Shown here piece by piece: positions 283 to 64,000 of a stretch of DNA of 64,000 bases (position 1 is the first letter of the stretch; every line of letters begins with the position of its first letter). The translations under genes and the position numbers were made by a program. Origin of the DNA: Candidatus Gastranaerophilales bacterium (GTDB taxonomy: Bacteria; Cyanobacteriota; Vampirovibrionia; Gastranaerophilales; Gastranaerophilaceae); the NCBI GenBank assembly GCA_016282705.1, contig JAEELO010000011.1, positions 1 through 64,000 on the forward strand, read 5' to 3'. A model generated the notes under the pieces. The model had not been told where the DNA came from, searched no databases, and was given only the letters and a program-made list of their open reading frames with translations.

Positions 283-307
283 CAAAGTTGAAACGAAAAC
301 CTATACT

Positions 308-343
308 AAAAACGGAAGTGTAATTTACACTTCCGTTTTTTTA
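308..343. terminator. Bidirectional rho-independent terminator
   Basis: An A-run, a stem of roughly 12-13 bp (AACGGAAGTGTAA paired with its complement) around a very small loop, and a T-run of seven. It lies between the convergent aldolase and XRE genes and looks usable from both sides. The stop codon of the XRE gene lies inside the T-run. Confidence 0.9.
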
Positions 344-646
344 AATACCTTTTAAAACTTTATATAATCGCAAAATATTTTCCTTTTTGTCAAGAGAACG
401 TATAATTTCTTTTTTCATTCCAACATAATCAATATCATTACTAAATAAAAACAATTCATAAAGGTTGACATCTAAAGCACGAGCTATTGCAGCAATAGTA
501 TCAGAAGAAGGATAATTGTTCCCATTCTCAATTCTGCTGATATTTTTAGAATCAATGCCAACCATTTCAGCAAGTTTATCCTGAGTATACTTTCTTTGTT
601 TTCTAATTTCCTGAATTCTTTTGCCCAGTTTACTTTTTAAACACAT
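341..646 (-). CDS. XRE-family helix-turn-helix transcriptional regulator
   Basis: A 101-residue protein made mostly of one lambda-repressor-like DNA-binding domain (residues ~8-65): GKRIQEIRKQRKYTQDKLAEM, then the recognition helix around SKNISRIENG. A C-terminal tail of about 30 residues has no recognisable ligand domain. This is the size of a stand-alone XRE regulator. AGGAGA lies 5-10 bases before the ATG. It is monocistronic, convergent with the aldolase gene and divergent from the polysaccharide cluster starting at 939, so regulation of that cluster or of itself is possible but not shown. The 290-base upstream spacer is very AT-rich and holds a small palindrome AGCCAATCGGCT near 880. Confidence 0.88.
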   Translation of the reverse strand: MCLKSKLGKRIQEIRKQRKYTQDKLAEMVGIDSKNISRIENGNNYPSSDTIAAIARALDVNLYELFLFSNDIDYVGMKKEIIRSLDKKENILRLYKVLKGI

Positions 647-938
647 ATTAATTTCTCCTAAATATAGGATGAATCACACAAAATAATTTTATAACCACTC
701 ACCGGATAGAATTTTTTTTTTTTATATTCTATATATTGATTATTTCAATTTAACATGTATAATTTTTTCATAATTCTATGTAATAAATAGAATTATATCG
801 GAAAATATGTAAGATTACCAATTTATTAATAAATTGTCCAAATGGGTAATCAAAAAGATTAAAAAAATAGCCAATCGGCTAAATGTTTCGAAAAAAGCTT
901 CATATTAATATAAAAATTAAATTGAGATTGGAAAAAAT

Positions 939-1517
939 ATGTATAAAGTCAGCATAATCATACCGGTTTATAATTCTGAGAAAACATTAAAAAAATGTTT
1001 AGATAGCATATTAAATCAATCATTTAAAGATAGAGAACTCGTAATAGTAAATGATGCTTCGGAAGATAAATCTTCAGAAATAATAAAAAATTATGCTGAT
1101 AAATATAAAAATATTTTATTCTTCGATAAAACCGAAAGAAAAGGCTTAACAAGAATAAAAAATTTAGCAATAGAAGCAGCCAGAGGAGAAAACATATTAG
1201 TTATAACCCCCGAAACTGTATTAGCGGAATCTTTTGTAGAAAAAGCTTATGAAATTCTAAATTCAAATAATCATATTGGTATTGTTTACCTTAAAGAGAA
1301 TAATAATGAAAACAAATTTAGTGAAAAACCAAGTTCTTGCTTTATGTTCAGAAAGCAAGATTTTATAGATTGCAGAAGATTTAGCAACAGTTTAGAGCAT
1401 GGCGATGAAAACACGGACTTATGGCTGCGTTTCAAGGAGAAAGAGTTTAAATTTTTACAAGTTGAAGAAAGAAGAGAAATTACTATTAAACAAGGGAAAG
1501 AGCATGTCCAAAATTAG
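939..1517 (+). CDS. Short GT2-like glycosyltransferase, DxD motif absent
   Basis: A 192-residue protein with the Rossmann-like start of a family 2 glycosyltransferase: VSIIIPVYNSEKTL, then LVIVNDASEDKS (nucleotide-sugar binding Asp) and the RIKNLAIEAARGE helix. At the place where GT-A enzymes carry the metal-binding DxD, this protein reads VITPETV, so the metal site looks lost. It is also shorter than most GT2 enzymes (about 250-330 residues). It overlaps the next gene by 14 bases in another frame and opens a polysaccharide cluster. It could be a non-catalytic partner, a metal-independent transferase or a decaying gene. GT2 fold confidence is high and activity is doubtful. Confidence 0.8.
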   Translation: MYKVSIIIPVYNSEKTLKKCLDSILNQSFKDRELVIVNDASEDKSSEIIKNYADKYKNILFFDKTERKGLTRIKNLAIEAARGENILVITPETVLAESFVEKAYEILNSNNHIGIVYLKENNNENKFSEKPSSCFMFRKQDFIDCRRFSNSLEHGDENTDLWLRFKEKEFKFLQVEERREITIKQGKEHVQN

Positions 1518-4500
1518 TGTAATTATACCAACAATGCAAAAAGATATTAACATTCTCAATATACTTGTTGATGAACTCGTTGAAGATACTAATGTCGGAG
1601 AAATCATTATCATAGATAATTCATTAAAAGGATATATTCATAAATCGGATAAAATCAATGTATTCTTACCCGATAAAAATATGTATGTAAATCCATCTTG
1701 GAACTATGGTATAAAAATATCAAATTATGAATATTTTGCTATTTTAAATGATGACCTCATATTACCATCTAATTTATGTAAACAAATTATAGAGTTTATA
1801 GATAAAACTCCAAATTGCGGAGTTATAGGATTAGAGTCATCAAGTGTAATGCAAGTAAATAACTTAAATTATAATCAATATACAGAAGAAAGTAATTTAT
1901 TATTTAAGCCTATTAATAACATTTATTCAAATAGTAATTTTTTTTGGGGTTCTGCAATATTTGGGAAAAAAGAAAATTATTATACTATTCCTGATGAAAT
2001 GCTTATTTATAGTGGAGATAATTATTTAATTTTTAAAAATAAAAAAAATAAGAAACAAAATTACGCAATAAGCAATATTAAAGTTTTTCATTGTGGTTCA
2101 TTAACAAGTTCAAATCCAAAATTTAATCCTATCAAAACGAATGATATGCTATTTTTCTGCAAACTAGATAAAGACTATCGCAGATTTAAACAAAAACAAA
2201 AGAAAGAGCAAATAATAAGTGGGATAACATTAAATAAATTAGAAAGACTTTTTTCCATAAAAAATTCTTGCAATAAAAAATATAAAATTATAACTATTTT
2301 TAATATTAAATTTATCAAGAGCATAAATTTTTCGGATAAAGAACCCAATTCCTGTAAACGTAAACCAATAGAATATATATTTTCTGTAAAAAACTCAAAC
2401 AATAAAGAACAAAAAATTATAACTATTTTAGGATTAAAAATAAAAAGAAAAAATTATAAAAAATTATTTTTGAGAGATGAAGAAATAATAAAAAATAATA
2501 AAAAATTACTTAGAAATAAAACAAAAGAAATAAAAAAATACAAAAAGATTGTTTCAGAAAATAAATCAAATATTAAGATTTTAAAAACCGAACTTATTTC
2601 TAAAGCGATGGGGAAACACAATTATGAAGCTTTTTATAAGTATATTCTGCCTATAAATACAATTAAAAAAATAATAGATAATGATAATATCAAAATAGTT
2701 TCGTTTGATATATTTGATACTTTATTAATAAGACCTTGTATTTTCCCTACAGATATTTTCTATTTAATTGCAAATAAAATTAATCATATATATAATATAG
2801 ACTTTATTGATTTACGTTTAAATGTTGAACAAAAGCTGGGGAATATATATGCTAACATAGACGAAATATATGATTTTATAGAAAAAGAATATCAACTGGA
2901 ACATAGTTTAGCAGAAAAGATTAAGCAAGAAGAATTATTATGCGAAAAACAATTACTCACAGTAAGGAATGATATTAAAGAAATATATGAATATGCAAAA
3001 TCAAAAGGGAAAAAAATTATAGCAATATCGGATATGTATTTATCTTCCGATTTTTTAAAAAATATATTAATTAATAACGGTTATAAGGATATTAGCTATA
3101 TATATATTTCAAATGAAATTAACGCACGTAAAGATATTGGTAATTTATATGATTTTGTAATTAAGAAAGAAAATGTAAAACCGTCACAAATCTGCCATAT
3201 TGGCGATAATTATGAATCTGATTATAAAGTTGCATTAAACAAATACATAACAGCTATTTATTATCCTTCAATAAAAAACATTGTTTTGGGACAAAACTCT
3301 ATTTACAAAGATATTTTTCCAAAAGATATATCTAATGACCCCATAGTAAGAATATTGTTAGGATACACATTTAATCAACTATTTAAAGATAGAGAAATTG
3401 CACCACAAGGCCCTAGTTTGTTTACAAATATTCAGGATTTTATTAAACTTTGTATTTGCCCAGTACTATTTTATATTGCACATTTTATTTCTACGAATTC
3501 AAATATTCAAACGAATTATAATACTGTATATTTTGCAGCAAGAGATGGTTATTTACCTCAAATAGCATATGATATAATTTCAAATCATATAAGTAAAGAA
3601 TGTATACCGTCTAAGTACATATATGCAGGAAGAAGAGCATATTTTTCCCTTATTAATGAGAATATAGAAGATTTTATTAATAGATATATTAAATATATTA
3701 ACAAAGATATAAATTTAAAAGATATTTTAAATGCATTTATAACAGACAAACAATTACTATCAAAAATTTATAACAATATACCTCCAGATATATTAAATTA
3801 TTCTATAAAAGAAAATCATAAAGAATGCTTTAATGAATTAAATAAATTTAAAGAAGATATTAACGAATACGAAAAAAAGCACAAAAATAATGCTATTCTA
3901 TATTATCAATCTCAAATCAAACAAATTACAGAAGAAAATATTATTTTCGATATTGGTTACAGCGGAACGATTGGTGATGCTCTATATACAGCAACCGGTA
4001 AAAAATGGAATAAAATATATTTATGGCAAAAAGAAGAAAACCAAAAAAAAGATAAATTAAATGAAACTTATACAATAGAACTGTTCAATAGAAAGAGATA
4101 TAGTAATAATCTTTTGTATGAAGAGATTTTTTCACCATTAGAAGGCAGTTGTCTTGGTTTTAGAGAGGATCATACACCTATCATTGAAGATATATCTTTT
4201 TCTGAGGAAATGAAAAATGATTATAAGACAATAAAAGAAACTTTAGTAAATTATTTAAATAATATTTGTTCACTCTTCCAAGATTATGTTAAATATTTGA
4301 CTGTTACAAATAGCGAAGATTTGCAAGAAATTCTTTTTTATATGTTATCCAAATCGCCTTATTTGGAAGCTTCAATATTTAAAAATATTATATTTAAAGA
4401 TGGTATATGTTATACAGAAGCAGAATCTCTAGAATCCAAAATATATACACCTAATAGAAAATATGAACATGTTTTCCAACTCACAGGATTTAATAATCCT

Positions 4501-5295
4501 TCAAATTACATAGAACATATTAAACTTAATAAAGATAATTATTTTAACCCAAAAGTTGCTATTCATCTTCATTTATATAATTTAAATTTATCAAATGAAA
4601 TTTTAAATTATTTAAAGAATTTTCCATATAAATTTGATTTATTAATAACCACCATAGATATAAACAACAAACATTGGATTGAAAACATTTTTAATAAAAA
4701 TATTATAGAAAATTTAAATAATTTATTTGTAATAGAGACAATAAACAGAGGAAGGGATGTTTCACCTTGGTTAATCGGAACAAAAGAATATCAAACAAAT
4801 TATGATTTATTTTGTCATATACATTCAAAAGAATCAAAACATTTTGGTAATATGGCAATTAATTGGCGAAGATATCTCTATAATAATTTGATTTCCAAAC
4901 AAGCTGTAATTAATATCTTTGAACTTTTTAAACAAGATAAAAATATTGGTTGTGTTTTTCCAAAAGAATATTATGAAATAGCAAATTTGTGTATAAATAA
5001 GGACATAAATCCGGAAGGAAAAGATGGAGAAATAGATATAATAAGGAATTTATCAAAAAAAATGGAAATAAAGAGGCGCTATTGCAAAAGTAATATTATA
5101 TTCTCTGCGGGAACAATGATGTGGTATAGACCAAATGCATTAAAACCACTATTTGATTTGAATTTATCATATGAAGATTTTCCTGAAGAACCAATTGAAG
5201 TAGGAGGAACTATTGCACATGCCATAGAACGTTTACCGTCTTTTGTATGTAATGAAAATGGATACAAAACGGTTATTTATAATCAGGAGCAATAA
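1504..5295 (+). CDS. Multidomain polysaccharide protein: GT2-like, HAD-like and RgpF-like domains
   Basis: Residue 1 is placed at ATG 1504, after GGGAAAG and followed by KISVIIPTM; the frame is open further upstream but an earlier start would split the GT fold. The 1263 residues read as: GT2-type domain (~1-240, LNDD at the DxD position); two copies of an FSIKN...ITILGLKIK module (~249 and ~292); a lysine-rich coiled stretch; a HAD-type domain with FDIFDTLL (~400), ISDMYLSS (~508) and HIGDNYESD (~565); a middle region with FAARDGYLP and FDIGYSGT; and a C-terminal rhamnan-synthesis F-like domain (~1015-1260) with NRGRDVSPWL, HSKES, FSAGTMMWYR and GTIAHAIERLP. RgpF-like domains occur in surface rhamnan and capsule glycosyltransferases. 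The role is probably chain assembly at the cytoplasmic face; no membrane segment is seen. The sugar specificity is unknown. Confidence 0.82.
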   Translation: MSKISVIIPTMQKDINILNILVDELVEDTNVGEIIIIDNSLKGYIHKSDKINVFLPDKNMYVNPSWNYGIKISNYEYFAILNDDLILPSNLCKQIIEFIDKTPNCGVIGLESSSVMQVNNLNYNQYTEESNLLFKPINNIYSNSNFFWGSAIFGKKENYYTIPDEMLIYSGDNYLIFKNKKNKKQNYAISNIKVFHCGSLTSSNPKFNPIKTNDMLFFCKLDKDYRRFKQKQKKEQIISGITLNKLERLFSIKNSCNKKYKIITIFNIKFIKSINFSDKEPNSCKRKPIEYIFSVKNSNNKEQKIITILGLKIKRKNYKKLFLRDEEIIKNNKKLLRNKTKEIKKYKKIVSENKSNIKILKTELISKAMGKHNYEAFYKYILPINTIKKIIDNDNIKIVSFDIFDTLLIRPCIFPTDIFYLIANKINHIYNIDFIDLRLNVEQKLGNIYANIDEIYDFIEKEYQLEHSLAEKIKQEELLCEKQLLTVRNDIKEIYEYAKSKGKKIIAISDMYLSSDFLKNILINNGYKDISYIYISNEINARKDIGNLYDFVIKKENVKPSQICHIGDNYESDYKVALNKYITAIYYPSIKNIVLGQNSIYKDIFPKDISNDPIVRILLGYTFNQLFKDREIAPQGPSLFTNIQDFIKLCICPVLFYIAHFISTNSNIQTNYNTVYFAARDGYLPQIAYDIISNHISKECIPSKYIYAGRRAYFSLINENIEDFINRYIKYINKDINLKDILNAFITDKQLLSKIYNNIPPDILNYSIKENHKECFNELNKFKEDINEYEKKHKNNAILYYQSQIKQITEENIIFDIGYSGTIGDALYTATGKKWNKIYLWQKEENQKKDKLNETYTIELFNRKRYSNNLLYEEIFSPLEGSCLGFREDHTPIIEDISFSEEMKNDYKTIKETLVNYLNNICSLFQDYVKYLTVTNSEDLQEILFYMLSKSPYLEASIFKNIIFKDGICYTEAESLESKIYTPNRKYEHVFQLTGFNNPSNYIEHIKLNKDNYFNPKVAIHLHLYNLNLSNEILNYLKNFPYKFDLLITTIDINNKHWIENIFNKNIIENLNNLFVIETINRGRDVSPWLIGTKEYQTNYDLFCHIHSKESKHFGNMAINWRRYLYNNLISKQAVINIFELFKQDKNIGCVFPKEYYEIANLCINKDINPEGKDGEIDIIRNLSKKMEIKRRYCKSNIIFSAGTMMWYRPNALKPLFDLNLSYEDFPEEPIEVGGTIAHAIERLPSFVCNENGYKTVIYNQEQ

Positions 5296-5299
5296 ATAT

Positions 5300-7525
5300 A
5301 TGAAAAAATTATTTTTTACAACAACTTCTTCTGATAAAAGACATAAAGTAATTTATTTTTTAGGAATAACTATAAAAATAAGAAGAGAAATAAATCCACC
5401 ATTTTCCATTATTATGCCTACATATAATCGTGCATTTTGTATAGAAAAAGCAATAGATTCTTTAATAAATCAAAATTATATAAAGTGGCAACTAATTATT
5501 ATTGATGATGGTTCCACAGATAATACTAAAGAGCTAATAAAAACTAAATATGCTAATTATATTAAAAATAAAAAAATGGTATATAAATATATACCAAATA
5601 GCGGTGTATGTAAAGCAAGAAATATGGGATTAAAACTATCAAAATATTCATGGATTGCATACTTAGATAGTGATAATGAAATGTGTTTAAAATTTTTAAA
5701 AAATTTTGCAAAAGCTATTTATAACAACCCAAATAAAAAATGTTTTTACGCAAAATTTAAAAGATCTAATAATGAAATCATCGGTACAACGTTTGATTTT
5801 AAATCATTATGTCAACAAAACTATATAGATTTAGGTGTATTTGTTCACCACAAATCACTTATAAAAGAATATGGCAATTTTGATACAACCTTAAAACGAC
5901 TGGTAGACTGGGATTTAATAATCAGATATACAAGATATAATAAACCTTATTTCATTAATAAAGTTCTTTTAAATTATAATAGCAATGATAATTACAAAAG
6001 AATTTCTAATTATGGAACATATGAAGAATACAGAGAGATAATTTATAGCAGAATTAGTAATTATAAAAAAGAAGAACCGTTTATATCTAATATTTTTTCC
6101 ATAAAAAATGATGATATACGCAAAGTTATAACCATTTTAGGGTTAAAAATAAAGTTCAAAAGTAAAAAGTTGATTGAAAGAAAAAGATTTAAAAATATAG
6201 AAAATCTATTAAAAGAACATTCTATCAAAATTAAAAATTATAAAAAAGATTTTAACCAACAAAAATCAAATATTGAAAAACAAAATAAATTAATTTTAGA
6301 GCAAGAAAAAAGGATAGAAGAACAAGGAGTAAAGATAGAAGAGCAAAATAGAAAGATTGAAAAACAAAATACAATTCTCTCTGAATTAAAATTAAAAGCA
6401 GAGGAACAAAAAATAATAATTGATGAAAATAAATCACTTTTAAATAAATTAAAATTAGAAATTGAAGAGAACAAAAACATAATTGACAAACAAAACTTAA
6501 TTTCTAATGAATTGAAATCAAAATTAAATGAACTGGATAAAATAAATTTAGAACAAAAAAATCAAATAGAAAAACAAATTATTGAAATCAATTTATTAAA
6601 TAAAAAATTCTCGTATCAACAAAAGGCTTTTGAATATAAATTATGCAAATATATGTCAACTGAAAAATACTCTGAATATTTAAAAGATTGGTATAAAAAT
6701 CATATTGGAGAAGTTTTAAATATTGATAATCCAAAAACATATAATGAAAAAATACAATGGATGAAGTTACATGATTCTACACCTATTAAAACACAACTTG
6801 CTGATAAATATCTTGTAAGAAATTGGGTAAAAGAGAAAATAGGTGAAGAATACTTAATACCATTATTAGGAGTTTGGGATAATTTTGATGATATTAATTT
6901 TGATGAAATGCCGGAGAAATTTGTTCTGAAATGCAATCATGGATGTGCATACAATATAATAGTTAAAGATAAATACAAATTTAATATAGAAGATGCAAGA
7001 AAAAAAATAAATAATTGGATGAATGAAAATTTTGCATTCTGTGCAGGTTTTGAACTTCATTATAAAGATATTCAAAGAAAAATTATTGCAGAACAATATA
7101 TTGAAAATGATGATAGCGATTTGTATGATTACAAATTCTGGTGTTTTGATGGCGAAGTAAAATACATACAATTCTTATCCGAACGTAATACAAAAGGCTT
7201 AAAAATGGCTTTTTATAATACAGATTGGGAAAAACAGGACTTTGTTTATTCGTATCCTTTAGATACTAAAAATATTGAGAAGCCTGATAATTTAGAAGAA
7301 ATGATTAGATTGGCAGAAAAATTATCGGAAGGTTTTAATCACATTCGTGTTGATTTTTACAGGTTAAATAACGGAAAAATATATTTTGGAGAAATGACCT
7401 TTACATCCTGTTCAGGAGTTTGCAAATGGGTTCCCAAAGGACAAGATTTGATTATGGGAGAAATGATAAAACTTCCAATTACAAAAACAAAGAACGAACT
7501 CACAGAATGGATTGATATAAAATAA
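5300..7525 (+). CDS. GT2 glycosyltransferase fused through a coiled coil to a TupA-like ATP-grasp domain
   Basis: The start is ATG 5300, 11 bases after AGGAG and five bases after the previous stop; upstream in-frame codons overlap the preceding gene. The 741 residues begin with a variant of the cluster's short module (KVIYFLGITIKI), then a GT2 domain (~33-250: SIIMPTYNRAF, IIDDGSTDNT, and an intact DxD in YLDSDNEM). A second module copy (~264-288, IFSIKNDDIRK) leads into a Q/E/K-rich coiled coil of about 150 residues. The C-terminal ~290 residues match the TupA-like ATP-grasp family: NPKTYNEKIQWMKL, DKYLVRNWV, YLIPLLGVWD, FVLKCNHG, and HIRVDFYR with GEMTFTSC. ATP-grasp members of this type ligate acyl or amino groups in cell-wall polymers. 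A bifunctional transferase and decorating ligase is the likely role. Confidence 0.87.
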   Translation: MKKLFFTTTSSDKRHKVIYFLGITIKIRREINPPFSIIMPTYNRAFCIEKAIDSLINQNYIKWQLIIIDDGSTDNTKELIKTKYANYIKNKKMVYKYIPNSGVCKARNMGLKLSKYSWIAYLDSDNEMCLKFLKNFAKAIYNNPNKKCFYAKFKRSNNEIIGTTFDFKSLCQQNYIDLGVFVHHKSLIKEYGNFDTTLKRLVDWDLIIRYTRYNKPYFINKVLLNYNSNDNYKRISNYGTYEEYREIIYSRISNYKKEEPFISNIFSIKNDDIRKVITILGLKIKFKSKKLIERKRFKNIENLLKEHSIKIKNYKKDFNQQKSNIEKQNKLILEQEKRIEEQGVKIEEQNRKIEKQNTILSELKLKAEEQKIIIDENKSLLNKLKLEIEENKNIIDKQNLISNELKSKLNELDKINLEQKNQIEKQIIEINLLNKKFSYQQKAFEYKLCKYMSTEKYSEYLKDWYKNHIGEVLNIDNPKTYNEKIQWMKLHDSTPIKTQLADKYLVRNWVKEKIGEEYLIPLLGVWDNFDDINFDEMPEKFVLKCNHGCAYNIIVKDKYKFNIEDARKKINNWMNENFAFCAGFELHYKDIQRKIIAEQYIENDDSDLYDYKFWCFDGEVKYIQFLSERNTKGLKMAFYNTDWEKQDFVYSYPLDTKNIEKPDNLEEMIRLAEKLSEGFNHIRVDFYRLNNGKIYFGEMTFTSCSGVCKWVPKGQDLIMGEMIKLPITKTKNELTEWIDIK

Positions 7526-7605
7526 AATTATAAAAAATCATGATAAAATAAGTTTAATTCACTCATTGTTATAAAAACATACATTCAAACGGAAAAGAAA
7601 TCTAA

Positions 7606-8700
7606 ATGTCAGTTAAAAAGTTTATACAAAATATATTTTCAGTCAGAAATAAAGACTTTCATAAAGTAATTACTATTTTGGGTATAAAAATTAAGTTCAA
7701 ACACCAAAAAGATAATGAATGCAAAAAAATTTCAGAACTGGAAAATAAAATTAAAAATCTTTCCAAAAACCTAAAGGAACAAGAAAAAAAGAATATTGAT
7801 TTGGAAAAGACCATAAATAATCAAAAAACGGAACTGGATAAACTGCAAAATAATATAGAAATCCTTGGAAGTGAAACATTAAAAATAAACCAAACAGCAG
7901 AAATTACCGAACTTGCAATGCTAAAAACCAAATATCATTGGGATAATATAAAAATTCCCCAAATTAAAAATAATTTTCAAACTATTGAAGAGTTAAAGAA
8001 CACAAATAAAAGTATAATCCGTTTTGGTAACGGCGATTTTGACATACTTAAAGGTAATAGTATGCCATATCAAAAATACGATAAATATATTGCAGATACT
8101 TTGAAAACTATTTGTTATGAAAACGATGAAAATTTAATGACAGGTATTCCTGAGCCATATTACGATTTTCCTATTGAACTTGTTGAAAGTTCCAAAAGAT
8201 TTATTTTAAATTGGTTCCCTAAATGGCATAAAATAATTGAAAAATATATTAATTATGAAAAGATATATTATTCAACTCACATTTCACAGGCATTTCCGGT
8301 ATATAGACAATACGATTTTAAAAACCACTATAACAATCTGAAGGAAATATGGAATAACAAGAAAATAACTGTAATAACAGGTGATAGAGTATACAACAAT
8401 ATAGAACATAATATTTTTGAGAATGCCGAAAGCATAAACTATATTTATGGTCCTACAGAAAATGCTTTTGATGAATATGAAAATTTAAAAAATAGAATTT
8501 TCAATACAGAGAAAGATAATATTTTAATTTTTGCACTTGGTCCTGCCGGTAAGGTACTGGCATATGATATGTATAAAGCAGGCTATCGTGTACTGGATTT
8601 AGGACATATTATAAAAGATTATGATTTTTACAAAAAGACAGAAAATAAATCACAAGATTATTATAATAAATGCAGAAAAAAGTTTTTCGATAAAGATTAG
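7606..8700 (+). CDS. GT-D fold (DUF1792) glycosyltransferase with N-terminal FSVRN module and coiled coil
   Basis: A 364-residue protein. Residues ~8-31 carry the cluster's shared module (IFSVRNKDF then KVITILGIKIKFK), residues ~35-95 form a charged coiled coil, and ~110-360 form a DUF1792-type domain: SIIRFGNGDFDIL at its start, VITGDRVYNN, and the closing LIFALGPAGKVLAYDMYKAGYRV split by short loops. DUF1792 is the GT-D fold first described for a streptococcal adhesin glycosyltransferase; the DxE-type metal site probably corresponds to GDFD here. It sits between the ATP-grasp gene and ugd on the same strand, consistent with a glucosyltransferase-like step in the same polymer. The start ATG follows a weak GGAAAAG. 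Confidence 0.82.
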   Translation: MSVKKFIQNIFSVRNKDFHKVITILGIKIKFKHQKDNECKKISELENKIKNLSKNLKEQEKKNIDLEKTINNQKTELDKLQNNIEILGSETLKINQTAEITELAMLKTKYHWDNIKIPQIKNNFQTIEELKNTNKSIIRFGNGDFDILKGNSMPYQKYDKYIADTLKTICYENDENLMTGIPEPYYDFPIELVESSKRFILNWFPKWHKIIEKYINYEKIYYSTHISQAFPVYRQYDFKNHYNNLKEIWNNKKITVITGDRVYNNIEHNIFENAESINYIYGPTENAFDEYENLKNRIFNTEKDNILIFALGPAGKVLAYDMYKAGYRVLDLGHIIKDYDFYKKTENKSQDYYNKCRKKFFDKD

Positions 8701-33682: not shown

Positions 33683-34450
33683 ATGAAAATATATTCAATA
33701 AATAATATAAGTTTTACTTCCAAAAAACCGGAAATCAGAAAAGCTGATGATATACAAAGACGGGCGAAATTAGAATTCCCGTCTCTCAGTTCATCTTATG
33801 TCAATGATTTTTATATCAGCACGGGGAGAAACAGCAGAATTACAAAGAGAAGAACGAACCTTTATGAACATTTACGCAGTTTAATTGAAAAAGTTAGGAA
33901 ATATCCTGTTAATAAATTAACACCGAGAAAAGAATATGTCCCATATATAGAGAATTTAAACGGTGTAAAAAAATATAAAGCCGGAAATTGTATGGAAAGT
34001 GCAATGGCAGCTATGTCAGCACTATATGCTAACGGTTATAAAAACACAAAATTAGGAAGTCTTGTGTATAAAGCTGATTTTCTGGATAAAAAAACCGGTG
34101 AAGTTTTATTCTCGGATTCAATTTCTTTAGACCATTCTTTTGCAGTTACTGATATGAATTCAGGTAAAAACAGAAATATTGTAGTAGACCCTTGGCTTGG
34201 TTTTGCCGATACAAAAGGAGGAGCAATATCACGATATAAAGGACTAAGAGACGAGAGATATCTTAATAATGCCATAAGCATCTTGGCAAAACCTTTATAT
34301 TCAGGCTATAAAATGCATATTGATGATATAAAAGAAGAATATAACATAAGAGCAAAAATAGAAATACAAGAAGAAGATTTTTTAAGCAAACAAGATATTG
34401 AAAATATAGCAACTCAAACAAAAATCCATTTCCCGAATTTGATTTTATAA
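33683..34450 (+). CDS. Putative cysteine hydrolase (Cys-His-Asp) with N-terminal NISFTSK motif
   Basis: A 255-residue protein of no named family that I recognise. It has an ordered triad pattern of papain/transglutaminase-like enzymes: GNCMESAMAAM (Cys103 at a helix start), DHSFAVTDM (His151) and IVVDPWLGFAD (Asp169), with spacing and context like bacterial transglutaminase-like or effector-type cysteine proteases. The first residues, INNISFTSKK, carry the S-F motif shared with other proteins of this window, and no signal peptide is present. The N-terminal 95 residues are basic and helical. The target is unknown. The catalytic assignment is an inference from motif order. Confidence 0.6.
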   Translation: MKIYSINNISFTSKKPEIRKADDIQRRAKLEFPSLSSSYVNDFYISTGRNSRITKRRTNLYEHLRSLIEKVRKYPVNKLTPRKEYVPYIENLNGVKKYKAGNCMESAMAAMSALYANGYKNTKLGSLVYKADFLDKKTGEVLFSDSISLDHSFAVTDMNSGKNRNIVVDPWLGFADTKGGAISRYKGLRDERYLNNAISILAKPLYSGYKMHIDDIKEEYNIRAKIEIQEEDFLSKQDIENIATQTKIHFPNLIL

Positions 34451-53193: not shown

Positions 53194-54144
53194 GTGAGAA
53201 TATCAAATATATCACCGTTTATGTGGAGTAAAACAGCTCAAACATCTCTAACATACGGTCTATTGCCTACTACAAAAAATAATAATACACTTTTAACAGG
53301 TTTAAATGCCGATACAATATCTTTTAGCAAAAAATCGGATAGCTTAACAGAAAGAGAAGTGTATGCCCAACATATGTTATCGGAGTTTAATAAACTCATA
53401 GAAACTGATAAAGCACAAGAAAACCCGTTAGTTCAAAAAGTAAATCCGAGTTTTATAACTAAATTTAATAACCATATAATAAATAATCCAAATAAACCTT
53501 TTTTAATAGCAATTGCAGGTGAATCCGCAAGCGGGAAAACAACAATATGTGATACAATTAAGCAGTCATTGGACGCATTAAACGTACCAATTGAAATAAT
53601 GAGTGCAGATAATTATTTTAAAGATATATCCGAACTCATAAAAAAACACGGTTCATTTGATAAATTGCTTGCATCCGGATATGATGTAGATTCTCCGAAT
53701 AACTTTAATATGGAACAATTATATACTGACTTATCAGAACTTTCAGAAGGAAAAGACGTAAGAATTCCGCAGTATTTAATTAACGGAACTGGTGTAGTTG
53801 TGCCAAATGCGATACCTAAAAAATCACAGAATGTGATTATAGTTGAAGGAATGGCAACAATGTACGGTAAAGTATCCGATTTATTCGATTTAAAACTTTT
53901 TATTGATATAAAACCCGAAATACAGGAAAAATGGTATATAGATAGAGCGAAAACCTCTCGCAACCAAAATGAAGAAAACGCAAGAAAACAGCTTGCATAT
54001 GTAAGAGAAGTTTCTAAAAAATATATCCTCCCGAAAAAGAATAATTCCGATATTATATTGAATGGCGGATGTTCGCTTGATTATCTTGATGAAGTTATCC
54101 GAAATATTTATAATATTACGACCTCAAACAAAACTTCGGCTTAA
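53194..54144 (+). CDS. Uridine-kinase/phosphoribulokinase-like protein, paralogue 2, with ISFSKK motif
   Basis: A 316-residue protein that starts at GTG after AGAGGAAA. From the P-loop on (GESASGKTT, SADNYFKDIS, YDVDSPNNF, IIVEGMATMYGK) it is the close relative of the 36370 protein. The N-terminal ~60 residues differ in length and contain NADTISFSKKSD (~38-49), the motif shared with several unrelated proteins here, at the position where the paralogue has PDFSTKSG. The nucleotide-binding residues are intact and the substrate may not be uridine. It is separate from the STAS module and has no close neighbour on its strand. Confidence 0.85.
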   Translation: MRISNISPFMWSKTAQTSLTYGLLPTTKNNNTLLTGLNADTISFSKKSDSLTEREVYAQHMLSEFNKLIETDKAQENPLVQKVNPSFITKFNNHIINNPNKPFLIAIAGESASGKTTICDTIKQSLDALNVPIEIMSADNYFKDISELIKKHGSFDKLLASGYDVDSPNNFNMEQLYTDLSELSEGKDVRIPQYLINGTGVVVPNAIPKKSQNVIIVEGMATMYGKVSDLFDLKLFIDIKPEIQEKWYIDRAKTSRNQNEENARKQLAYVREVSKKYILPKKNNSDIILNGGCSLDYLDEVIRNIYNITTSNKTSA

Positions 54145-55577: not shown

Positions 55578-56459
55578 CTATCTGGAAGTTGAAAGATTAT
55601 ATGTTAAAACAGCATCATTACCTTGTTCCGAAATATAAAGAATATCATTTTTTATGTAAAGAAAATAAGGTTTTGAAACATTGTCCATAAAGACACTGAC
55701 ATTCCCGCCCTTCGTTACTTTTAAAATATTATTTGATTCAAAATTAGCAACATATATATTATCATACTTATCTATTGCAAGTCCGATAGGACCGTCAAGC
55801 AAATTATCTTTTATAAAATTAGTTTTATTCTTATTTTTATCTACTTTTATAATTGCATTATCAGAATAACTTACAACAAACATATTTCCTTCCGAATCAA
55901 CTGCGAGACCGGCAGGAGAATTAAATTTATCCAATAAAACACGTTTGGTTTTTGTTGCAGTTGTTACCTTTGAACGTTCTATTTTATTTTTTTGCTGTGA
56001 AAATTGCTCTTTTGCATCGGCATATAACTGTTGCGCATAACCGTAATAATAATAATCATCCGGTATATATTTTAAATATTTCATCGCAAGTGAATAATTT
56101 TTTCTGTTATATGAAATTTTTGCAGCCTGCAAAATAGCATCATAATCATAAGGATTAAGAGCAATTATTTTGACATAAGCATTGTATGCGTCGTCATAAT
56201 TTTGCTGTGCGACATATATTGCAGCAATATTATAATATGCATCAGACATTTTCGGATTGTATTTCAATGCTTCTTGGAAATAAGATATAGCAGTATCATA
56301 AGCTTTTGAATTTGCCATCTCAACACCTTGTTTATAAAGTGCAATGGACTTTGATATAGCCGCTTCTGAAATATCGGTTTCTGCCCAAACCGCATTATTT
56401 CCGAATGATAATGCGATTGCAATAATTATAGATATTATAATAAATATTTTCTTTTTCAT
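55578..56459 (-). CDS. Exported TPR and NHL-repeat protein
   Basis: A 293-residue protein with a signal peptide (KKKIFIIISIIIAIALSF, cleavage near AVWA). About three TPR units (~34-160, for example YDDAYNAYVKIIALNPYD) are followed by NHL-type beta-propeller repeats (~175-290: FNSPAGLAVDSEGNMFVVSY and GPIGLAIDKYDNIYVANF). The number of NHL units is too small for a closed propeller by itself. It starts on the last base of gatA (ATG/TAA overlap), so both are co-translated although their functions look unrelated. Confidence 0.82.
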   Translation of the reverse strand: MKKKIFIIISIIIAIALSFGNNAVWAETDISEAAISKSIALYKQGVEMANSKAYDTAISYFQEALKYNPKMSDAYYNIAAIYVAQQNYDDAYNAYVKIIALNPYDYDAILQAAKISYNRKNYSLAMKYLKYIPDDYYYYGYAQQLYADAKEQFSQQKNKIERSKVTTATKTKRVLLDKFNSPAGLAVDSEGNMFVVSYSDNAIIKVDKNKNKTNFIKDNLLDGPIGLAIDKYDNIYVANFESNNILKVTKGGNVSVFMDNVSKPYFLYIKNDILYISEQGNDAVLTYNLSTSR

Positions 56460-57937
56460 TACACCACTGCCATTGAAGGAATACTATAATTAAATTGTAC
56501 AGCCTCTTCAAGTTTAAAGGCAACATTTAATAATTTTGTTTCATTTAAACAATCAGCCTGTAATTGCAACCCTATAGGCATGCCATCTTTATCAAGACCT
56601 ACCGGAATATTCATTGCCGGAAGTCCTGCAAGGTTAGCAGTAATTGTTGCAATATCTGTCAAATACATACTTAACGGATCTTCAACTTTAGAACCTATAT
56701 CAAATGCCGTATGAGGACATGTCGGTGAAATTAATACATCAACTTTTTTGAAAGCATTATCAAAATCATTTTTAACAAGTCTTCTTAATTGCTGTGCTTT
56801 TTTATAATAAGCATCATAATAACCTGAACTTAAAGCATAAGTTCCGAGCATTATTCTTCTTTTTACTTCATCACCAAAGCCTTGGGCTCTGGTTTTTACA
56901 TACATATCATACAGTGTTTCAGCATCTTTTGCTCTGTAACCGTATTTTACACCGTCAAATCTTGCTAAATTAGAGCTTGCTTCTGCAGTTGCAACAATAT
57001 AATATACGGCAATTGAATATTTAATAAGAGGCAGCGAAATTTCAATAATTTCCGCACCCATTGATTTATATGTTGAAATTGCTTTTTGAACAGCATCTGC
57101 CACATCAGGAGCTAAGCCATCCGAGCATAATTCTTTTATATAACCGATTTTTATACCTTTTAAATCATTTTTTAAATCTTTTGTAAAATCAGGCGGTGTT
57201 TGATTTAAAGAAGTTGAATCTTTTTCATCATGTCCTGCAATAACATTTAATAATAAAGCCGAATCTTCAACAGTTCTTGTTATCGGGCCAATTTGATCCA
57301 AAGATGAAGCAAAGGCAATTAAGCCATATCTGGAAACACGACCGTATGTCGGTTTAAGACCAACCAATCCGCAATAACTTGCAGGAAGTCTTATACTTCC
57401 TCCCGTATCTGAACCTAATGCAACAGTTGCTTCGCCTGCCGCAACAGCAGCAGCACTTCCTCCCGAGCTTCCACCCGGTACTTTATTTAAATTCCACGGG
57501 TTTCTTGTTATTTTAGTAGCAGAATTTTCCGTACTTGAACCCATTGCGAATTCATCCATGTTTACTTTACCGATAATCGGTATCAAATTGGATTTTAATT
57601 TCTCTGTAACTGTAGCATCATAAGGGGAAACAAAATTTGCCAATATTTTGCTTGATGCCGTTGTATATGATGATTTTAAATTAATATTATCCTTTAATGC
57701 TAACGGAATACCTGCTAACGGCGCAAGTTCTTCTCCGTTTTTTATTTTTTCATCAACTGTTTTAGCTGTTTCCAGCGCAAATTCCTTTGTTAATGAATTA
57801 TATGCACCTATTTTTTCATCAACTTCTTCAATTTTATTATATACTGCTTCGGTTAACTCTACAGCACTTACTTCTTTATTTAATAAAGCCTTTCTCTGTT
57901 CTTTTGAAGACTTTGTGATTAGTTCACGAATATCCAA
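56459..57937 (-). CDS. gatA: Aspartyl/glutamyl-tRNA amidotransferase subunit A
   Basis: A 492-residue amidase-signature enzyme that releases ammonia from glutamine for the GatCAB transamidation of Glu-tRNA(Gln) and Asp-tRNA(Asn). ALKDNINLKSS contains the catalytic Lys, and VPGGSSGGSAAAV plus GSDTGGSIRLPA give the Ser-cisSer triad; GLKPTYGRVSRYGL and the end-of-chain NIPVGLDKDGMPIGLQL are family typical. GatB and GatC are not adjacent. It is translationally coupled to the TPR/NHL gene downstream. Confidence 0.95.
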   Translation of the reverse strand: MDIRELITKSSKEQRKALLNKEVSAVELTEAVYNKIEEVDEKIGAYNSLTKEFALETAKTVDEKIKNGEELAPLAGIPLALKDNINLKSSYTTASSKILANFVSPYDATVTEKLKSNLIPIIGKVNMDEFAMGSSTENSATKITRNPWNLNKVPGGSSGGSAAAVAAGEATVALGSDTGGSIRLPASYCGLVGLKPTYGRVSRYGLIAFASSLDQIGPITRTVEDSALLLNVIAGHDEKDSTSLNQTPPDFTKDLKNDLKGIKIGYIKELCSDGLAPDVADAVQKAISTYKSMGAEIIEISLPLIKYSIAVYYIVATAEASSNLARFDGVKYGYRAKDAETLYDMYVKTRAQGFGDEVKRRIMLGTYALSSGYYDAYYKKAQQLRRLVKNDFDNAFKKVDVLISPTCPHTAFDIGSKVEDPLSMYLTDIATITANLAGLPAMNIPVGLDKDGMPIGLQLQADCLNETKLLNVAFKLEEAVQFNYSIPSMAVV

Positions 57938-58051
57938 TTTATATACCTCTCATGTTCTCTTAATAATATTATAAATTAAAGACACAAAATTAGTATACAA
58001 TTTTCAATTTTACATTTCTAATGATATGATTAAATTAAAAGAGGTGATATT

Positions 58052-59113
58052 TTGGCAATTATATCAGATGACGATAATATAAAATTTGAGAATAAGAAAA
58101 ATGAAGATACAACAGCAGAAGAAACTTCATTTGATATGTCATTTGAATCTAATATTCGTCCTAAATATTTTGATGAATATATAGGACAAAGTGCTTTAAA
58201 ATCAACATTAAAAATATCAATTGAAGCGGCGAAAAAGAGAGAATTGCCTCTTGACCATATTTTATTTTACGGTCCTCCCGGATTAGGAAAAACCACTCTT
58301 GCTTCGGTAATAGCAACAGAGATGGGAGCAAATATCAAAATAACATCAGCACCTTCATTAGAAAGACCTCGTGATATTATAGGATTATTAATGTCTTTAA
58401 AAGCCGGTGATGTATTATTTATTGATGAAATTCATCGTTTAAATAAAATTTCGGAAGAAATACTTTATCCTGCAATGGAAGATTTCTATTTAGACATGAC
58501 AACAGGAAAAGGTCAAACATTAAAATCAATCAGAATTCCTATTCCCAAATTTACGCTAATCGGAGCAACTACAAAAGCAGGTTCTCTGTCAGGCCCGTTA
58601 AGAGACCGATTTGGTATAATTCACAGGCTTGAGTTTTATACGGATGAAGAATTAAAACAGGTTATTCAAAGAACCGCAAAAATCTTGGAAATAGAAATAG
58701 ATGAAAAAGGTGCAATTGCAATAGCAAGACGTTCAAGAGGAACTCCGAGAATTGCGAACAGACTTGTAAAAAGAGTACGGGATTATGCCATCGTAAAATC
58801 AAACGGCAAAATTAATGAAAAAAATGCAAATGAAGCATTAGATATACTAAGAATAGATAAATTCGGATTGGACAATACAGATCGTTCTCTGTTAAAAATA
58901 ATTGCCGAAAATTATAACGGAGGGCCTGTCGGAATTGAAACTCTTGCAACCGCGCTCGGCGAAGATTCAAAAACAATAGAAGATGTTTATGAACCTTATC
59001 TCGTTCAAAAAGGCTTCCTGCAAAGAACACCAAGAGGAAGGAAATTAACCCCGTATGCTTGTAAATGTTTTAATATTACTGATATAGATTTGCAGCAATC
59101 TCTTTTTGAATAG
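58052..59113 (+). CDS. ruvB: Holliday junction branch migration ATPase RuvB
   Basis: A 353-residue AAA+ motor. The start is TTG 58052, six bases after AGAGGTGA; there is no ATG near. [13 protein letters not shown], Walker [12 protein letters not shown], Walker [11 protein letters not shown], sensor [19 protein letters not shown] in segments with the arginine finger, and the winged-helix end with [12 protein letters not shown]. The N-terminal ~35 residues are acidic and longer than the common form. RuvA and RuvC are not in the window. Its last 38 bases overlap the alkyltransferase gene on the other strand. Confidence 0.96.
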
Positions 59114-59585
59114 AATATTTTTCCAATTTCAACAATTTTTCTTTAATATTTATTCCTGCGGAATATCCTGTTAATTTTCCGTCTGAGCCTATTACTCTGT
59201 GACATGGAACAACGATTAACACCGGATTTTTTGCAACTGCACCACCAACAGCCTGCGCTGACATTCTTTCTGCGCCGCATTTTCTTTTTATTTCCGAAGC
59301 AATTGCTTTATAAGTTATTGTTTTTCCATACGGTATGTTCTTAAGAATTTCCCATACTCTTTTTTGAAAATCCGTTCCTTGCATATTTAAATGAGGAATA
59401 AAATCGGGATTTATTCCGGAAAAATATACATCAAGCCAGTTTTTTACTTCTTCAATATAAATATTCCGAGTATTTGAAACTATTATCTCGGATTTTTTAA
59501 TAAATCGAATACCCGTTATTCCATTATCATCCGACTCTATTTGAATTATACCTATAGGTGAGACATAAATATCAAAGTATTTCAT
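59076..59585 (-). CDS. ogt: Methylated-DNA-protein-cysteine methyltransferase
   Basis: About 169 residues, start set at ATG 59585 ([14 protein letters not shown], the usual start of the family); an ATG at 59600 and GTG 59630 are in frame. The DNA-binding [20 protein letters not shown] and the active site [11 protein letters not shown], with the acceptor Cys, are intact, as is the Asn-Pro in AKNPVL. It repairs O6-alkylguanine by irreversible transfer to its own cysteine. Its 3' end overlaps ruvB tail to tail. Confidence 0.93.
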
Positions 59586-59636
59586 AATGTAATTATACAT
59601 TACAAAATCTTTTTCGATTATACTCTTCACTGTTTA

Positions 59637-61130
59637 TCAGATTTGCAATTTTGCAAAACTTCCGCCGACCTCATATAAATCGGTATTATTACGTAAATAA
59701 TCATTAAACAGCTTAATTCTTTCAGGCATTAATTCTTTATCCAAATCATAAAACGGAGCTACTGACTCAAATGCCATAAGCATTCCTTTTGAACCTTCTT
59801 TTAATTCATTTATGAAATTAACTACATTCGGAAATTCTTTGCTGTCTTTAGGTTCAAAATAATGTGAAAGATAATATGGTGAAGCAAGAGCTAAAACCGG
59901 CTTTTGAACTTCTTTTGACAAGCAATCTATCATATCTGTATAAACATTTTCTGCAACTGATACTATTTTTTCCTGATTATTTACCGGATTTTTTTCTTCA
60001 TGCGTTGCATAGAAATCAAAAATCTTCTTAATTTCTTTGTTTACTTCTCCATCATCCTTGATAATTCTTGTACCGACAGGAGCTCCGGTATTTGCATTAG
60101 AACCTACAAATACCTTTCCTAAATCAGACATAATCTCTGCTACATCTCTAAGGTTTTCTTCAGGTTTCAGCTTAATACCTTTAATTGATAAATCACCTTT
60201 TGTTTCCGCATATTCTCTAACCCTCCAATAAAGGTTAGATACACCGTATGCTTTTTTATATCTGATTCCGTTTTGTTGCACAAATTCAAGTACTCTGTAT
60301 TTATATTCAGGATACAATTCACATACCTGCTTTATAAAATCAACAACCATTTGTTTTCTGCTGTTTATTGTTTTATCAATGGTTTCAATTAAGTTCTCAG
60401 AAAAAGGATTAATACCGTATATCAACATTTCACTATTTTCAAAATGCTGCTGAGAATTTGGTGCTTTATGTGTATAAGACATTTTTATTCCGGGAATAAT
60501 TTTTACATGTTTAAATTTGTCAGGATCTTGTCCTATAATTCTTACAGCATGCTGAATTCCTTCAACAGAATCTCTATCCGTTATTGCAAATATAAACGGC
60601 TTTTTATGTCTTTCATAATATTCCTCCGCATAGTCGGCAACTTTATCAAGCATATCGTATACATTGTCATTTCCGCTTGAATGCGTTGTTTGATAATCCA
60701 AATCAATAAAATACATTCCGTTATTAATATTTTCTTCTGTAGATAAGAAATTTTGTACGGTCAGTTTAGGCAGAAGTTTTTTAACCTCACTCGGATTCAT
60801 TATCGATGACAAATTAGAATATGGAACTTTCTCTCCTAAAACTTTTTGCATGTCCATAGATATTCGTTTTTGGAAATTAACCGCTCTTAATTCGTCTTGA
60901 TCAACAATGGTTTTTGTTTCTATTTTAGTTTGTTGTTGAGTATTATTTTTAGTATGAGATAACTTAGCTATAAAATCGCCAAATAGTCCTTTCCCGAATG
61001 ATACATTTTGTGCAGAACATTGTCTGACAAAACAGTCGTCCGTATTTGAATACAAATATGGATTTCTATATGCCTGAGGCATTTGTTGTTTTTCTGTATA
61101 TAAAGGGATTTGAGGAACTTTTATATTCAT
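59637..61130 (-). CDS. Degenerate PHP-domain protein with N-terminal NVSFGKG motif
   Basis: A 497-residue protein. Residues 143-220 follow the PHP phosphoesterase pattern, but metal ligands are replaced: motif I reads DLDYQTTHSSG (usual DLHxHTxxSDG), motif II AITDRDSVEG (usual TDHDT), and the next strand PGIKMS (usual PGIEx). The middle and C-terminal parts (~225-497) are alpha/beta with LALASPYYLSHYF and FESVAPFYDL and do not resemble a known family. The N-terminus has AQNVSFGKGLFGDF (40-53), one of the clearest copies of the shared SFGK motif; there is no signal peptide. It is probably not an active PHP hydrolase and may be a binding protein. It is followed on the same strand by the alkyltransferase gene. 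Confidence 0.72.
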   Translation of the reverse strand: MNIKVPQIPLYTEKQQMPQAYRNPYLYSNTDDCFVRQCSAQNVSFGKGLFGDFIAKLSHTKNNTQQQTKIETKTIVDQDELRAVNFQKRISMDMQKVLGEKVPYSNLSSIMNPSEVKKLLPKLTVQNFLSTEENINNGMYFIDLDYQTTHSSGNDNVYDMLDKVADYAEEYYERHKKPFIFAITDRDSVEGIQHAVRIIGQDPDKFKHVKIIPGIKMSYTHKAPNSQQHFENSEMLIYGINPFSENLIETIDKTINSRKQMVVDFIKQVCELYPEYKYRVLEFVQQNGIRYKKAYGVSNLYWRVREYAETKGDLSIKGIKLKPEENLRDVAEIMSDLGKVFVGSNANTGAPVGTRIIKDDGEVNKEIKKIFDFYATHEEKNPVNNQEKIVSVAENVYTDMIDCLSKEVQKPVLALASPYYLSHYFEPKDSKEFPNVVNFINELKEGSKGMLMAFESVAPFYDLDKELMPERIKLFNDYLRNNTDLYEVGGSFAKLQI

Positions 61131-61206: not shown

Positions 61207-61491
61207 TTAACTTTTATGTCTTAATACCCAAACAGAGAATGCTGCAACTGCAGCCAAAAACACACCAAATTTCGGAGAAATTTTTCTTTGTTTTTTTAAC
61301 ATTGTTTCTATTTGATTTTGCGTTACCTGTTTTCTGAATTCATCGCAATTTCTTTCAATAGAAGATGCCGTACACTTTGGCAGACTGTCAGGTGCAACTA
61401 TATAATTGTCAGATTTCTTGCCCATTGTAATATCTTGTGCAGGAATAACGTTATTGCTATTTATAATTTGGGAATTTATAATATTAGACAT
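61207..61491 (-). CDS. Small tail-anchored protein with ITMGKK motif
   Basis: A 94-residue protein after a very strong GGAGGAATT site. The N-terminal ~65 residues are soluble and include QDITMGKKSDN (~19-29), a possible variant of the shared motif, and two cysteines (KCTASSIERNCDE). A single C-terminal membrane helix (~74-90, FGVFLAAVAAFSVWVL) is followed by a short RHKS tail, so the protein is tail-anchored with the N-terminus in the cytoplasm. It is 76 bases upstream of the PHP-like gene on the same strand. Confidence 0.72.
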   Translation of the reverse strand: MSNIINSQIINSNNVIPAQDITMGKKSDNYIVAPDSLPKCTASSIERNCDEFRKQVTQNQIETMLKKQRKISPKFGVFLAAVAAFSVWVLRHKS

Positions 61492-61682: not shown

Positions 61683-64000
61683 GTGAATATTAGAAAAAAC
61701 AACTTAAACCTAAACGGGATATCATTTTCGGGACATAAAAAGACTATAAATGAGTCAGGATTTGATAAACACGATTTTTTCTATTTATATGACACAAATA
61801 AATACAACTGTGAGGTTGAATTTTTCAGCATCAAAAAAGATAAAAACGGAAATTATTCAATAAAAGAAGCTGCAAATAAGCCTGCAGAAGTAGTTCCTTT
61901 AGCAGAAGATTCAAGAATTGGCGGCGGAAAAGTCAGTGTAAATGTCAGAAAAATGTTTACTATAGAATCAAATGAAGGTTTCGCCTACAGATTTAAGTTA
62001 ACCGAAAAGAACAATCCGAAAAAGGTTTCTTATGCTTTTGATAACGGTGCAGTAATAGGAATATTTGATGATATAAATAATCCTAAAAATAAATTTAATA
62101 TTGTTCTAAATAATCGTGCAACTATTAATAAAAACGGTTCTATGCAATTAATAATGCCAGATGAATATTATCCCGGCATTGTAAAAGATGCAAAGAGCGG
62201 AAAGCCTACCCTTGATGAAACAATGAGAGCACAAGCATTGGCAAGTGTGAGAACTCATGCAAACAGGCTTGGCGGTAATTTCTTCGGGATTATAAGCAGA
62301 TTACCCGAAATTGCGAAAGAAGGAGTAACAAGAATTGTCGGAACTCCGTATACAAGAGATACTATTTCTTCTCATCTGTATTGGACAGAAAATGCATATC
62401 AGGTTGCTCCAAATCTCGGAACAGAAGAAGATTTTAAACAGCTTCAAATTGAACTGTTTAAAAACGGAATAAACTGGATTGCTGATGCTGCTCTTGTTAA
62501 TGAAGGTTTTGGAGGGATACATCTATCCGAATTATTAAGAAAAGGACAAAATTCTATTTCTAAAGATATGTTTAGGGCAGATGAAAAAATTTCATTGCAT
62601 ATATTACCTGATAATTTAGGTCATACAAAAATGAAAATAATAAATGCCGATTTTTCTATAACTTCGGCAGGTGAATATATACCGAATAATTCGGAATATA
62701 ATCCAGCAAAACCCACCTATATACAATTCTATGATGACAGACTTGCAAGTGATGAACAAAAAGCTTCGCAATCACCTTCAAGAATGACTACATACGATAA
62801 AAAGAATACAAGAAATATCTATGACATTACAAAACATGATGATGCAGTTTATCCGTTCCCGATAGAAGTAAATCGTGATGAGTTAAAAAGGAACATAGAA
62901 AGACTTTTGAAAACAGAACCAAAATTGGATTTCAGTAAATTAAATATGTCGCAAATCAAACAAATTACTGATTTTACAAACTTTAATATAGAGAATAAGA
63001 GTGCTTCAGCAAGCGGACTTGAAGTATGGGACGGTAACGTAGACATTGCAAAATTAAACTTCTATCCGAGTGATAAGGATGATGCAAGATTTTCAAAATT
63101 ACCGTTAGAAGAACAACAAGCTGCAATGGATGATTTCAGAAGAGGCGGACTTGCAGTTCGTGATTATGCAGTAAATTCAGGAAAATACTGGACAAAATTA
63201 ACAGCAGATACACAATTTGCATATATTTCATCAATGCTTGCATCAAAGAAAAGTTCTGATGTTAACGGATATATGGATGTAATAAATAAACTTACAAATA
63301 ACGGCAGTATGCCAAAATCAGTTAAAGATGTAGTAGACCGTACTGTAATTAAGAATGTTCTTTCCGACAGATATAATTTCAGAAGATTAGATAATAATGA
63401 TGTTCGCTCTTCTTTATATTCAAATGATATGAATCCAAACAAATACAGTGTTTCAGATTATATTGCAAGAAATTCTATGGATTTACCATTGGAGACATTG
63501 CCTGTTGCAACAAACTTATTAGGCATTTTGACATCTCCGTATCTTGCTAAAAAAGCGAATACGGAAGAAGAATTAGCTGTATCCAGATTTGATATAACTG
63601 AAGCCGGTAATCCGAATTTGCCCGAAAAATATAAAGGCATATATACAAAAATGGATAATATTTATAAAGAGCAAATAGCTCCGCTTATAGAAGAGTTGAT
63701 AGAAAAAGTTCCGGATCTTGAAAAAGATGACGAAGTAACAGAATACGGAAGATATGTTATAGCAGAAATCGCTCCTGAACTAACAAAATATATATTATTA
63801 AAAGCATTAAATCAAAGCGCACAAGTTAATGTCGATGATATGGGAAATTTCGATTTCTCAAAAGTAGACCGAGAAAGCATCACAATGCAATCTCTAAATA
63901 TACCTTATGAAGGAATGTCATCTAAAGAAGAAGCTGAAACCGTTATAAATGCTTTAATGAGCGGTATTGGAAATATCTCAGATAAAGATAAAGCCATCTT
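61683..64000 (+). CDS. Large amylase-like (GH13-type) protein with NGISFSG motif, truncated by window end
   Basis: The frame opens at GTG 61683, five bases after AAGGAGA, and is still open at 64000 after 772 codons. Residues 11-18 (NGISFSGH) carry the shared motif. From ~195 on, the sequence follows the first part of a GH13 alpha-amylase barrel: GGNFFGIISRLPEIAKEGVT, SSHLYWTENAYQVAPNLGT in pieces, then GINWIADAALVNEGFGG at the first conserved region, where typical enzymes have DxVxNH. The His is replaced by Glu, so calcium or active-site features may be altered. Whether catalytic Asp and Glu exist later cannot be judged from the visible part. No signal peptide, so a cytoplasmic role is expected. 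Confidence 0.62.
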   Translation, partial: MNIRKNNLNLNGISFSGHKKTINESGFDKHDFFYLYDTNKYNCEVEFFSIKKDKNGNYSIKEAANKPAEVVPLAEDSRIGGGKVSVNVRKMFTIESNEGFAYRFKLTEKNNPKKVSYAFDNGAVIGIFDDINNPKNKFNIVLNNRATINKNGSMQLIMPDEYYPGIVKDAKSGKPTLDETMRAQALASVRTHANRLGGNFFGIISRLPEIAKEGVTRIVGTPYTRDTISSHLYWTENAYQVAPNLGTEEDFKQLQIELFKNGINWIADAALVNEGFGGIHLSELLRKGQNSISKDMFRADEKISLHILPDNLGHTKMKIINADFSITSAGEYIPNNSEYNPAKPTYIQFYDDRLASDEQKASQSPSRMTTYDKKNTRNIYDITKHDDAVYPFPIEVNRDELKRNIERLLKTEPKLDFSKLNMSQIKQITDFTNFNIENKSASASGLEVWDGNVDIAKLNFYPSDKDDARFSKLPLEEQQAAMDDFRRGGLAVRDYAVNSGKYWTKLTADTQFAYISSMLASKKSSDVNGYMDVINKLTNNGSMPKSVKDVVDRTVIKNVLSDRYNFRRLDNNDVRSSLYSNDMNPNKYSVSDYIARNSMDLPLETLPVATNLLGILTSPYLAKKANTEEELAVSRFDITEAGNPNLPEKYKGIYTKMDNIYKEQIAPLIEELIEKVPDLEKDDEVTEYGRYVIAEIAPELTKYILLKALNQSAQVNVDDMGNFDFSKVDRESITMQSLNIPYEGMSSKEEAETVINALMSGIGNISDKDKAI

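Follow-up and report, generated by a model that had tools for sequence, protein, structure and literature searches.

The window analysed here, a stretch of 64,000 nucleotides (positions 1 to 64,000 of contig JAEELO010000011.1 from a Candidatus Gastranaerophilales bacterium), carries on its reverse strand, at positions 59637..61130, the gene referred to below as pseudo-PHP, an open reading frame of 497 amino acids with an ATG start. The start is backed by the orthologues, where Met1 is invariant and Ile3 nearly invariant, and the long, intact frame noted in the first-pass annotation is confirmed. The reading frame and an AlphaFold2 model define the predicted architecture: a disordered segment (residues 1–83) with an NVSFGK motif, followed by a PHP barrel with a helical insertion at approximately residues 240–375. 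Two genes on the same strand flank pseudo-PHP: at 61207..61491, 76 bp upstream, a gene for a 94-aa protein with a predicted C-terminal transmembrane segment, seen as a C-terminal hydropathy peak; and at 59076..59630, 6 bp downstream, an ogt/MGMT-type methyltransferase gene recognised by Pfam. Motifs of the N-I/V-S-F-x-G/K type occur in the variable, probably disordered N-termini of pseudo-PHP orthologues and of a few unrelated window proteins, among them those encoded at 33683-34447 and 53221-54144.

The PHP identity of the protein is invisible to standard annotation, since a Pfam search of the 497-aa sequence gives no match to the PHP family PF02811 at E ≤ 1, the gathering cutoff not being reached, and the only NCBIfam match, RNase RNM (NF047791; E 0.017), is sub-threshold with 14.4 bits against an equivalog cutoff of 375 bits. 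Single-sequence searches of Pfam, NCBIfam, and PDB sequences yielded no significant match for the window protein, nor did a search of PDB sequences with a profile of the pseudo-PHP clade. Given the Pfam and NCBIfam results, annotation pipelines probably label the protein as hypothetical. The relationship to PHP proteins is visible only via the profile of the intact sister clade, which matches Vibrio cholerae RNase AM (9etk) by sequence with E 1.3e-8, and via comparison of folds.

The AlphaFold2 model, for which 46 sequences were used, reaches a pLDDT of 90 or more at 268 residues, with such values in the core, and stays below 50 across nearly all of residues 1–83, consistent with disorder of this region. 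The best PDB match of the model is 9etk (Foldseek E 9.1e-10, VIA Z 17.6); further VIA matches are the PHP domain of RNase AM (7ug9, Z 17.3) and an AMP-bound PHP protein (2yb1, Z 16.6), while the PHP domains of Pol III/PolC match at Z 11–13. The top VIA matches (Z 9.4–17.6) are PHP proteins or PHP-containing polymerases, and the model shows the distorted alpha/beta barrel that defines the fold of the PHP superfamily. The first-pass annotation had aligned the sequence with PHP motifs and named a fold prediction unlike PHP as a refuting outcome; the family alignment, the model, and the PDB comparison agree on the motif alignment, and the predicted fold is that of PHP. With the group of RNase AM/RNase RNM (YciV) and 3',5'-nucleoside bisphosphate phosphatase (9etk, 7ug9, 2yb1), pseudo-PHP shares the barrel, the helical insertion, and the order of motifs; unlike this group, it has eight of nine metal ligands replaced and an extra disordered N-terminus, has no sequence-level PDB match to RNase AM-type structures, and scores far below the NF047791 cutoff.

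The nine PHP ligands were numbered as in PMC3666897, and the respective columns were compared between 36 orthologues and 20 intact relatives. The latter have H, H, D, H, E, E, H, D, and H at positions 1–9, whereas in the window protein eight of the nine are replaced (H145D, H147Q, D152S, H186R, E216K, H417S, D492F, H494K), Glu234 at position 6 being the only one still acidic; the full set of nine ligands in motifs I–IV that marks catalytic PHP proteins is thus absent. In motif I (60690..60698, reverse strand, as are all motifs below), D145-Y-Q147 stands for H-x-H, with Asp in 36 of 36 and Gln in 29 of 36 orthologues, against His at both positions in 20 of 20 intact proteins. In motif II (60573..60575), Arg186 replaces the His of TDHD (Arg in 28 and Lys in three of the 36; His in 20/20 intact), and in motif III (60483..60485), Lys216 replaces the metal-bridging Glu of PGxE (Lys in 35, Arg in one; Glu in 20/20 intact). 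Ser417 (59880..59882) stands where AHP has its His (Ser in 20, Ala in 11, Asn in three, Asp in two of the 36; His in 19/20 intact), Ser152 substitutes for the Asp of SDG (position 3), and motif IV (59649..59657), from Phe492 to Lys494, reads GGSFAK in place of GGxDNH, with Phe at the Asp column in 31/36 (Asp in 20/20 intact). Position 6, which is His in many PHP proteins, is Asp or Glu in 33/36 orthologues; positions 3, 7, and 9 are variable. The replacements of the DLHxH histidines by Asp and Gln, of the TDHD His by Arg, and of the PGIE Glu by Lys had been pointed out earlier, together with the statement that nearly all ligands are replaced; all recur here as D145, Q147, R186, and K216, and the loss exceeds that list by S152, S417, F492, and K494.

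Only six columns combine conservation of at least 90% within each group with a different residue in the two (36 pseudo-PHP vs 44 intact sequences). Two of them are ligands 1 (His to Asp145) and 5 (Glu to Lys216), and another, Pro459, adjoins the lost His of ESxHQ; this His, invariant in the 20 relatives and absent from the window protein too, is probably not a metal ligand, since more distant PHP proteins have Tyr there. The acidic TDxD residues Asp185 and Asp187 are conserved in both groups, and the other ligand positions have gained no conserved His or Cys in the 36 orthologues. As read from these columns, the change of the ligands is directed and goes beyond mere loss.

Catalytic loss is well supported by this comparison: the protein is expected neither to hold the catalytic metals nor to hydrolyse phosphoesters, although weak binding of one metal may occur, as position 6 is acidic in 33/36 orthologues. 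In the PHP centre, ligands 1 and 5 lie close to the same metal, hence an Asp–Lys pair there suggests a salt bridge, and Asp145 and Lys216 probably form one. We lean towards a charge network, made of this pair together with Arg186 and Lys494, that would replace the metal cluster and keep the barrel together. An altered enzyme is the strongest of the competing explanations: the pocket would be rebuilt for a metal-independent reaction or for another metal arrangement, via Asp145, Arg186, Lys216, Glu234, and Asp187. It draws on the charged pocket with the invariant Asp–Lys pair, on the retained TDxD acidic residues Asp185 and Asp187, and on Glu or Asp at position 6; against it stand the last motif, turned hydrophobic (Phe492 in 31/36), and the lack of conserved new His or Cys noted above, and we know of no PHP enzyme that works without its metals. 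On balance we consider it quite improbable.

In other genera of the Gastranaerophilales, a 450-aa PHP family keeps all ligands (e.g., L055, L063, and L066). It is homologous to pseudo-PHP over residues 85–490, at approximately 27–35% identity, and has the same insertion; it differs in its complete ligand set and in an N-terminal hydrophobic segment, present in most members (above threshold in 27 of 44) and absent from the pseudo-PHP clade. The same family has also lost ligands in other genera: they are missing in L075 (G046) and L199 (G245) of g7, and in L114, L119, and L058 (G053), which belong to g14 or adjoin it in the tree, and are partly changed in L112 and L061. All four proteins of the g14 group (L112, L058, L119, L114) have Asn or Gln at the TDHD His, the other ligands being lost in a graded way. 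A quick tree implies that the family switched four times between a degenerate and an intact state, and it sets the clade of the window's genus, the two g7 proteins, and the g14 group apart from one another; by this reconstruction, g7 and g14 represent at least two further, separate losses of the metal site.

The window's own genome (G000) encodes two further PHP paralogues with intact ligand motifs, C76 (L002) and C60 (L003), and some members of the genus carry more intact PHP proteins. Such proteins could in principle be partners of pseudo-PHP, which would then be a regulatory subunit of an intact paralogue within a heteromer in the same cell; this is highly improbable, given that C76 and C60 are distant from it (approximately 33% identity over 125 residues) and encoded elsewhere in the genome, and that in most genomes of the genus the sequence search matched nothing else.

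Of 41 genomes of the genus (Candidatus Gastranaerophilales), 37 have a pseudo-PHP orthologue, with 40–58% identity and all frames open; every aligned orthologue (n = 36) lacks the ligands, and the replacements are conserved at key positions. In a profile search of 383 genomes from 51 genera of the order, a clear gap separates the matches with E 1e-142 or better, which are confined to the genus, from relatives in other genera at 1e-84 and weaker. The pseudo-PHP clade is monophyletic (SH-aLRT 100), and its stem is long, at 1.26 changes per column; its sister consists mostly of intact PHP proteins, largely from other genera. In ten close pairs of pseudo-PHP genes dN/dS is 0.08–0.21, vs 0.10–0.15 for intact relatives (five pairs); because the higher dS values approach saturation, most weight falls on the closest pairs (0.08 and 0.087). 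These values point to purifying selection, and the distribution indicates that the window gene is not a lone degraded copy. The first-pass annotation had favoured a pseudo-enzyme over random decay, proposed to look for the substitutions in close homologues, and named intact ligands within the same clade as contrary evidence: Asp145 is found in 36/36 and Lys216 or Arg in 36/36, intact homologues occur only in the sister clade or as separate paralogues, and the conserved replacements in 36 orthologues, together with dN/dS of 0.08–0.21, bear its preference out. Decay of a PHP enzyme freed of selection, its frame open by chance, would fit the vanished ligand columns and the complete loss of the gene in two genomes, and is nonetheless hardly credible, being already refuted, as far as conservation can tell, by 37/37 open frames, low dN/dS, (nearly) invariant Asp145 and Lys216, and a conserved locus.

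The protein is, by sequence comparison, an enzyme-family homologue without catalytic motifs that is maintained by selection, as a pseudoenzyme should be, and we regard it as very probably a true one. The usual gene order in the 36 loci of the genus is an amylase-like gene (divergent), the gene for the small tail-anchored protein, pseudo-PHP, and then a block consisting of a gene for a 293-aa protein, gatA, and ruvB; the genes on either side of pseudo-PHP are nearly always the same. Judged by its sequence, the 293-aa product resembles a secreted repeat protein, not GatC. Most genomes of the genus encode an orthologue of the 94-aa protein directly upstream of pseudo-PHP; none was detected at several of the 36 loci carrying the PHP gene, and four other genera gave weak matches (E 1e-5 to 1e-3). 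Descent of the small protein from a membrane segment shed by the intact family was considered and gained no support: the two N-terminal stretches have no evident similarity by eye, and the hydrophobic segment is above threshold in only part of the intact members. At L150 (G020) and L148 (G036) the PHP gene is cleanly lost and the surrounding genes, the small upstream one included, are kept; G026 and G007, which end at nearby contig breaks, were left out of the judgement of gene loss.

A binding or scaffold role is rather likely for pseudo-PHP, in line with the first-pass annotation, which took the protein to be kept for binding. It would bind either a ligand resembling phosphate or RNA, in the pocket that is now positively charged, or a protein partner via the conserved insertion helices (SNLYWRxREY). 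The most conserved pseudo-PHP-specific residues lie partly in the insertion, e.g., Asn299-Leu300-Tyr301, Arg303, and Arg305-Glu306, and could form a contact surface. The only candidate partner suggested by gene order is the small membrane-anchored protein encoded upstream, which would be the likeliest one and could bring pseudo-PHP to the membrane; from gene order this partnership can be proposed only tentatively, and the two clean losses of the PHP gene show that the small protein does not need pseudo-PHP, which argues against strict dependence. The reading as a whole, in which an RNase AM-like PHP metallophosphoesterase gave rise to a conserved pseudoenzyme with a charge network at the former metal site and a role in binding, we consider likely. 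A bolder extension, doubtful at present, is that the job of the family is essentially non-catalytic, the metal site being an optional structural element that gave way to protein-only cores on at least three occasions, to a charge network in the window's genus and to other versions in g7 and g14; if true, the family would offer a natural series of intact, partly lost, and fully replaced metal sites.

PHP domains that lack metals have been described mainly within replicative polymerases. In the PHP domain of E. coli Pol III, five of the nine ligands are lost and Arg side chains occupy metal positions (PMC3666897). Pseudo-PHP resembles it in the loss of ligands, the positive side chains at former metal positions, and the retained fold, and differs in being free-standing and not a polymerase domain, in lacking eight of nine ligands rather than five, and in having Lys at the bridging Glu. 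The metal-free type is already known, and the free-standing family is new; in open-access full-text literature we found no paper pairing the PHP domain with the term pseudoenzyme or with Gastranaerophilales. A genus-wide free-standing family with conserved replacements, intact relatives, and separately degenerated cousins forms a natural series for the replacement of a trinuclear metal site by side chains; it also bears on what the PHP fold does once cutting is lost, and gives a likely function class to a protein left blank by standard annotation.

Several further features of the window were seen. At 55578-59113, the gatA/ruvB block is inverted relative to the orthologous loci, the ogt-type gene lying between the block and the PHP gene; none of the orthologous loci showed an ogt-type gene on the downstream side of the PHP gene, and the one here is specific to this genome and lies outside the conserved unit. 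The amylase-like (GH13) protein at 61683-63998 is approximately 1350 aa long in orthologues, of which Pfam recognises approximately 80 residues. As only the start of the domain is matched, a second pseudoenzyme was considered here and rejected, the L077 orthologue having GWRIDAAKD, EINPH, and FFGNHDKPR; judging by these GH13 motifs, identified by eye, the amylase-like neighbour is probably active. In other genera an ancestral PHP gene was not found beside the amylase gene, whose neighbour there reads, by eye, as S-adenosylhomocysteine hydrolase, hence the locus of pseudo-PHP is peculiar to this genus. At the other end of the window, positions 1-8000 have a G+C content of 0.22–0.27, vs about 0.30 elsewhere, and contain long ORFs with glycosyltransferase-like N-termini; this region was possibly acquired.
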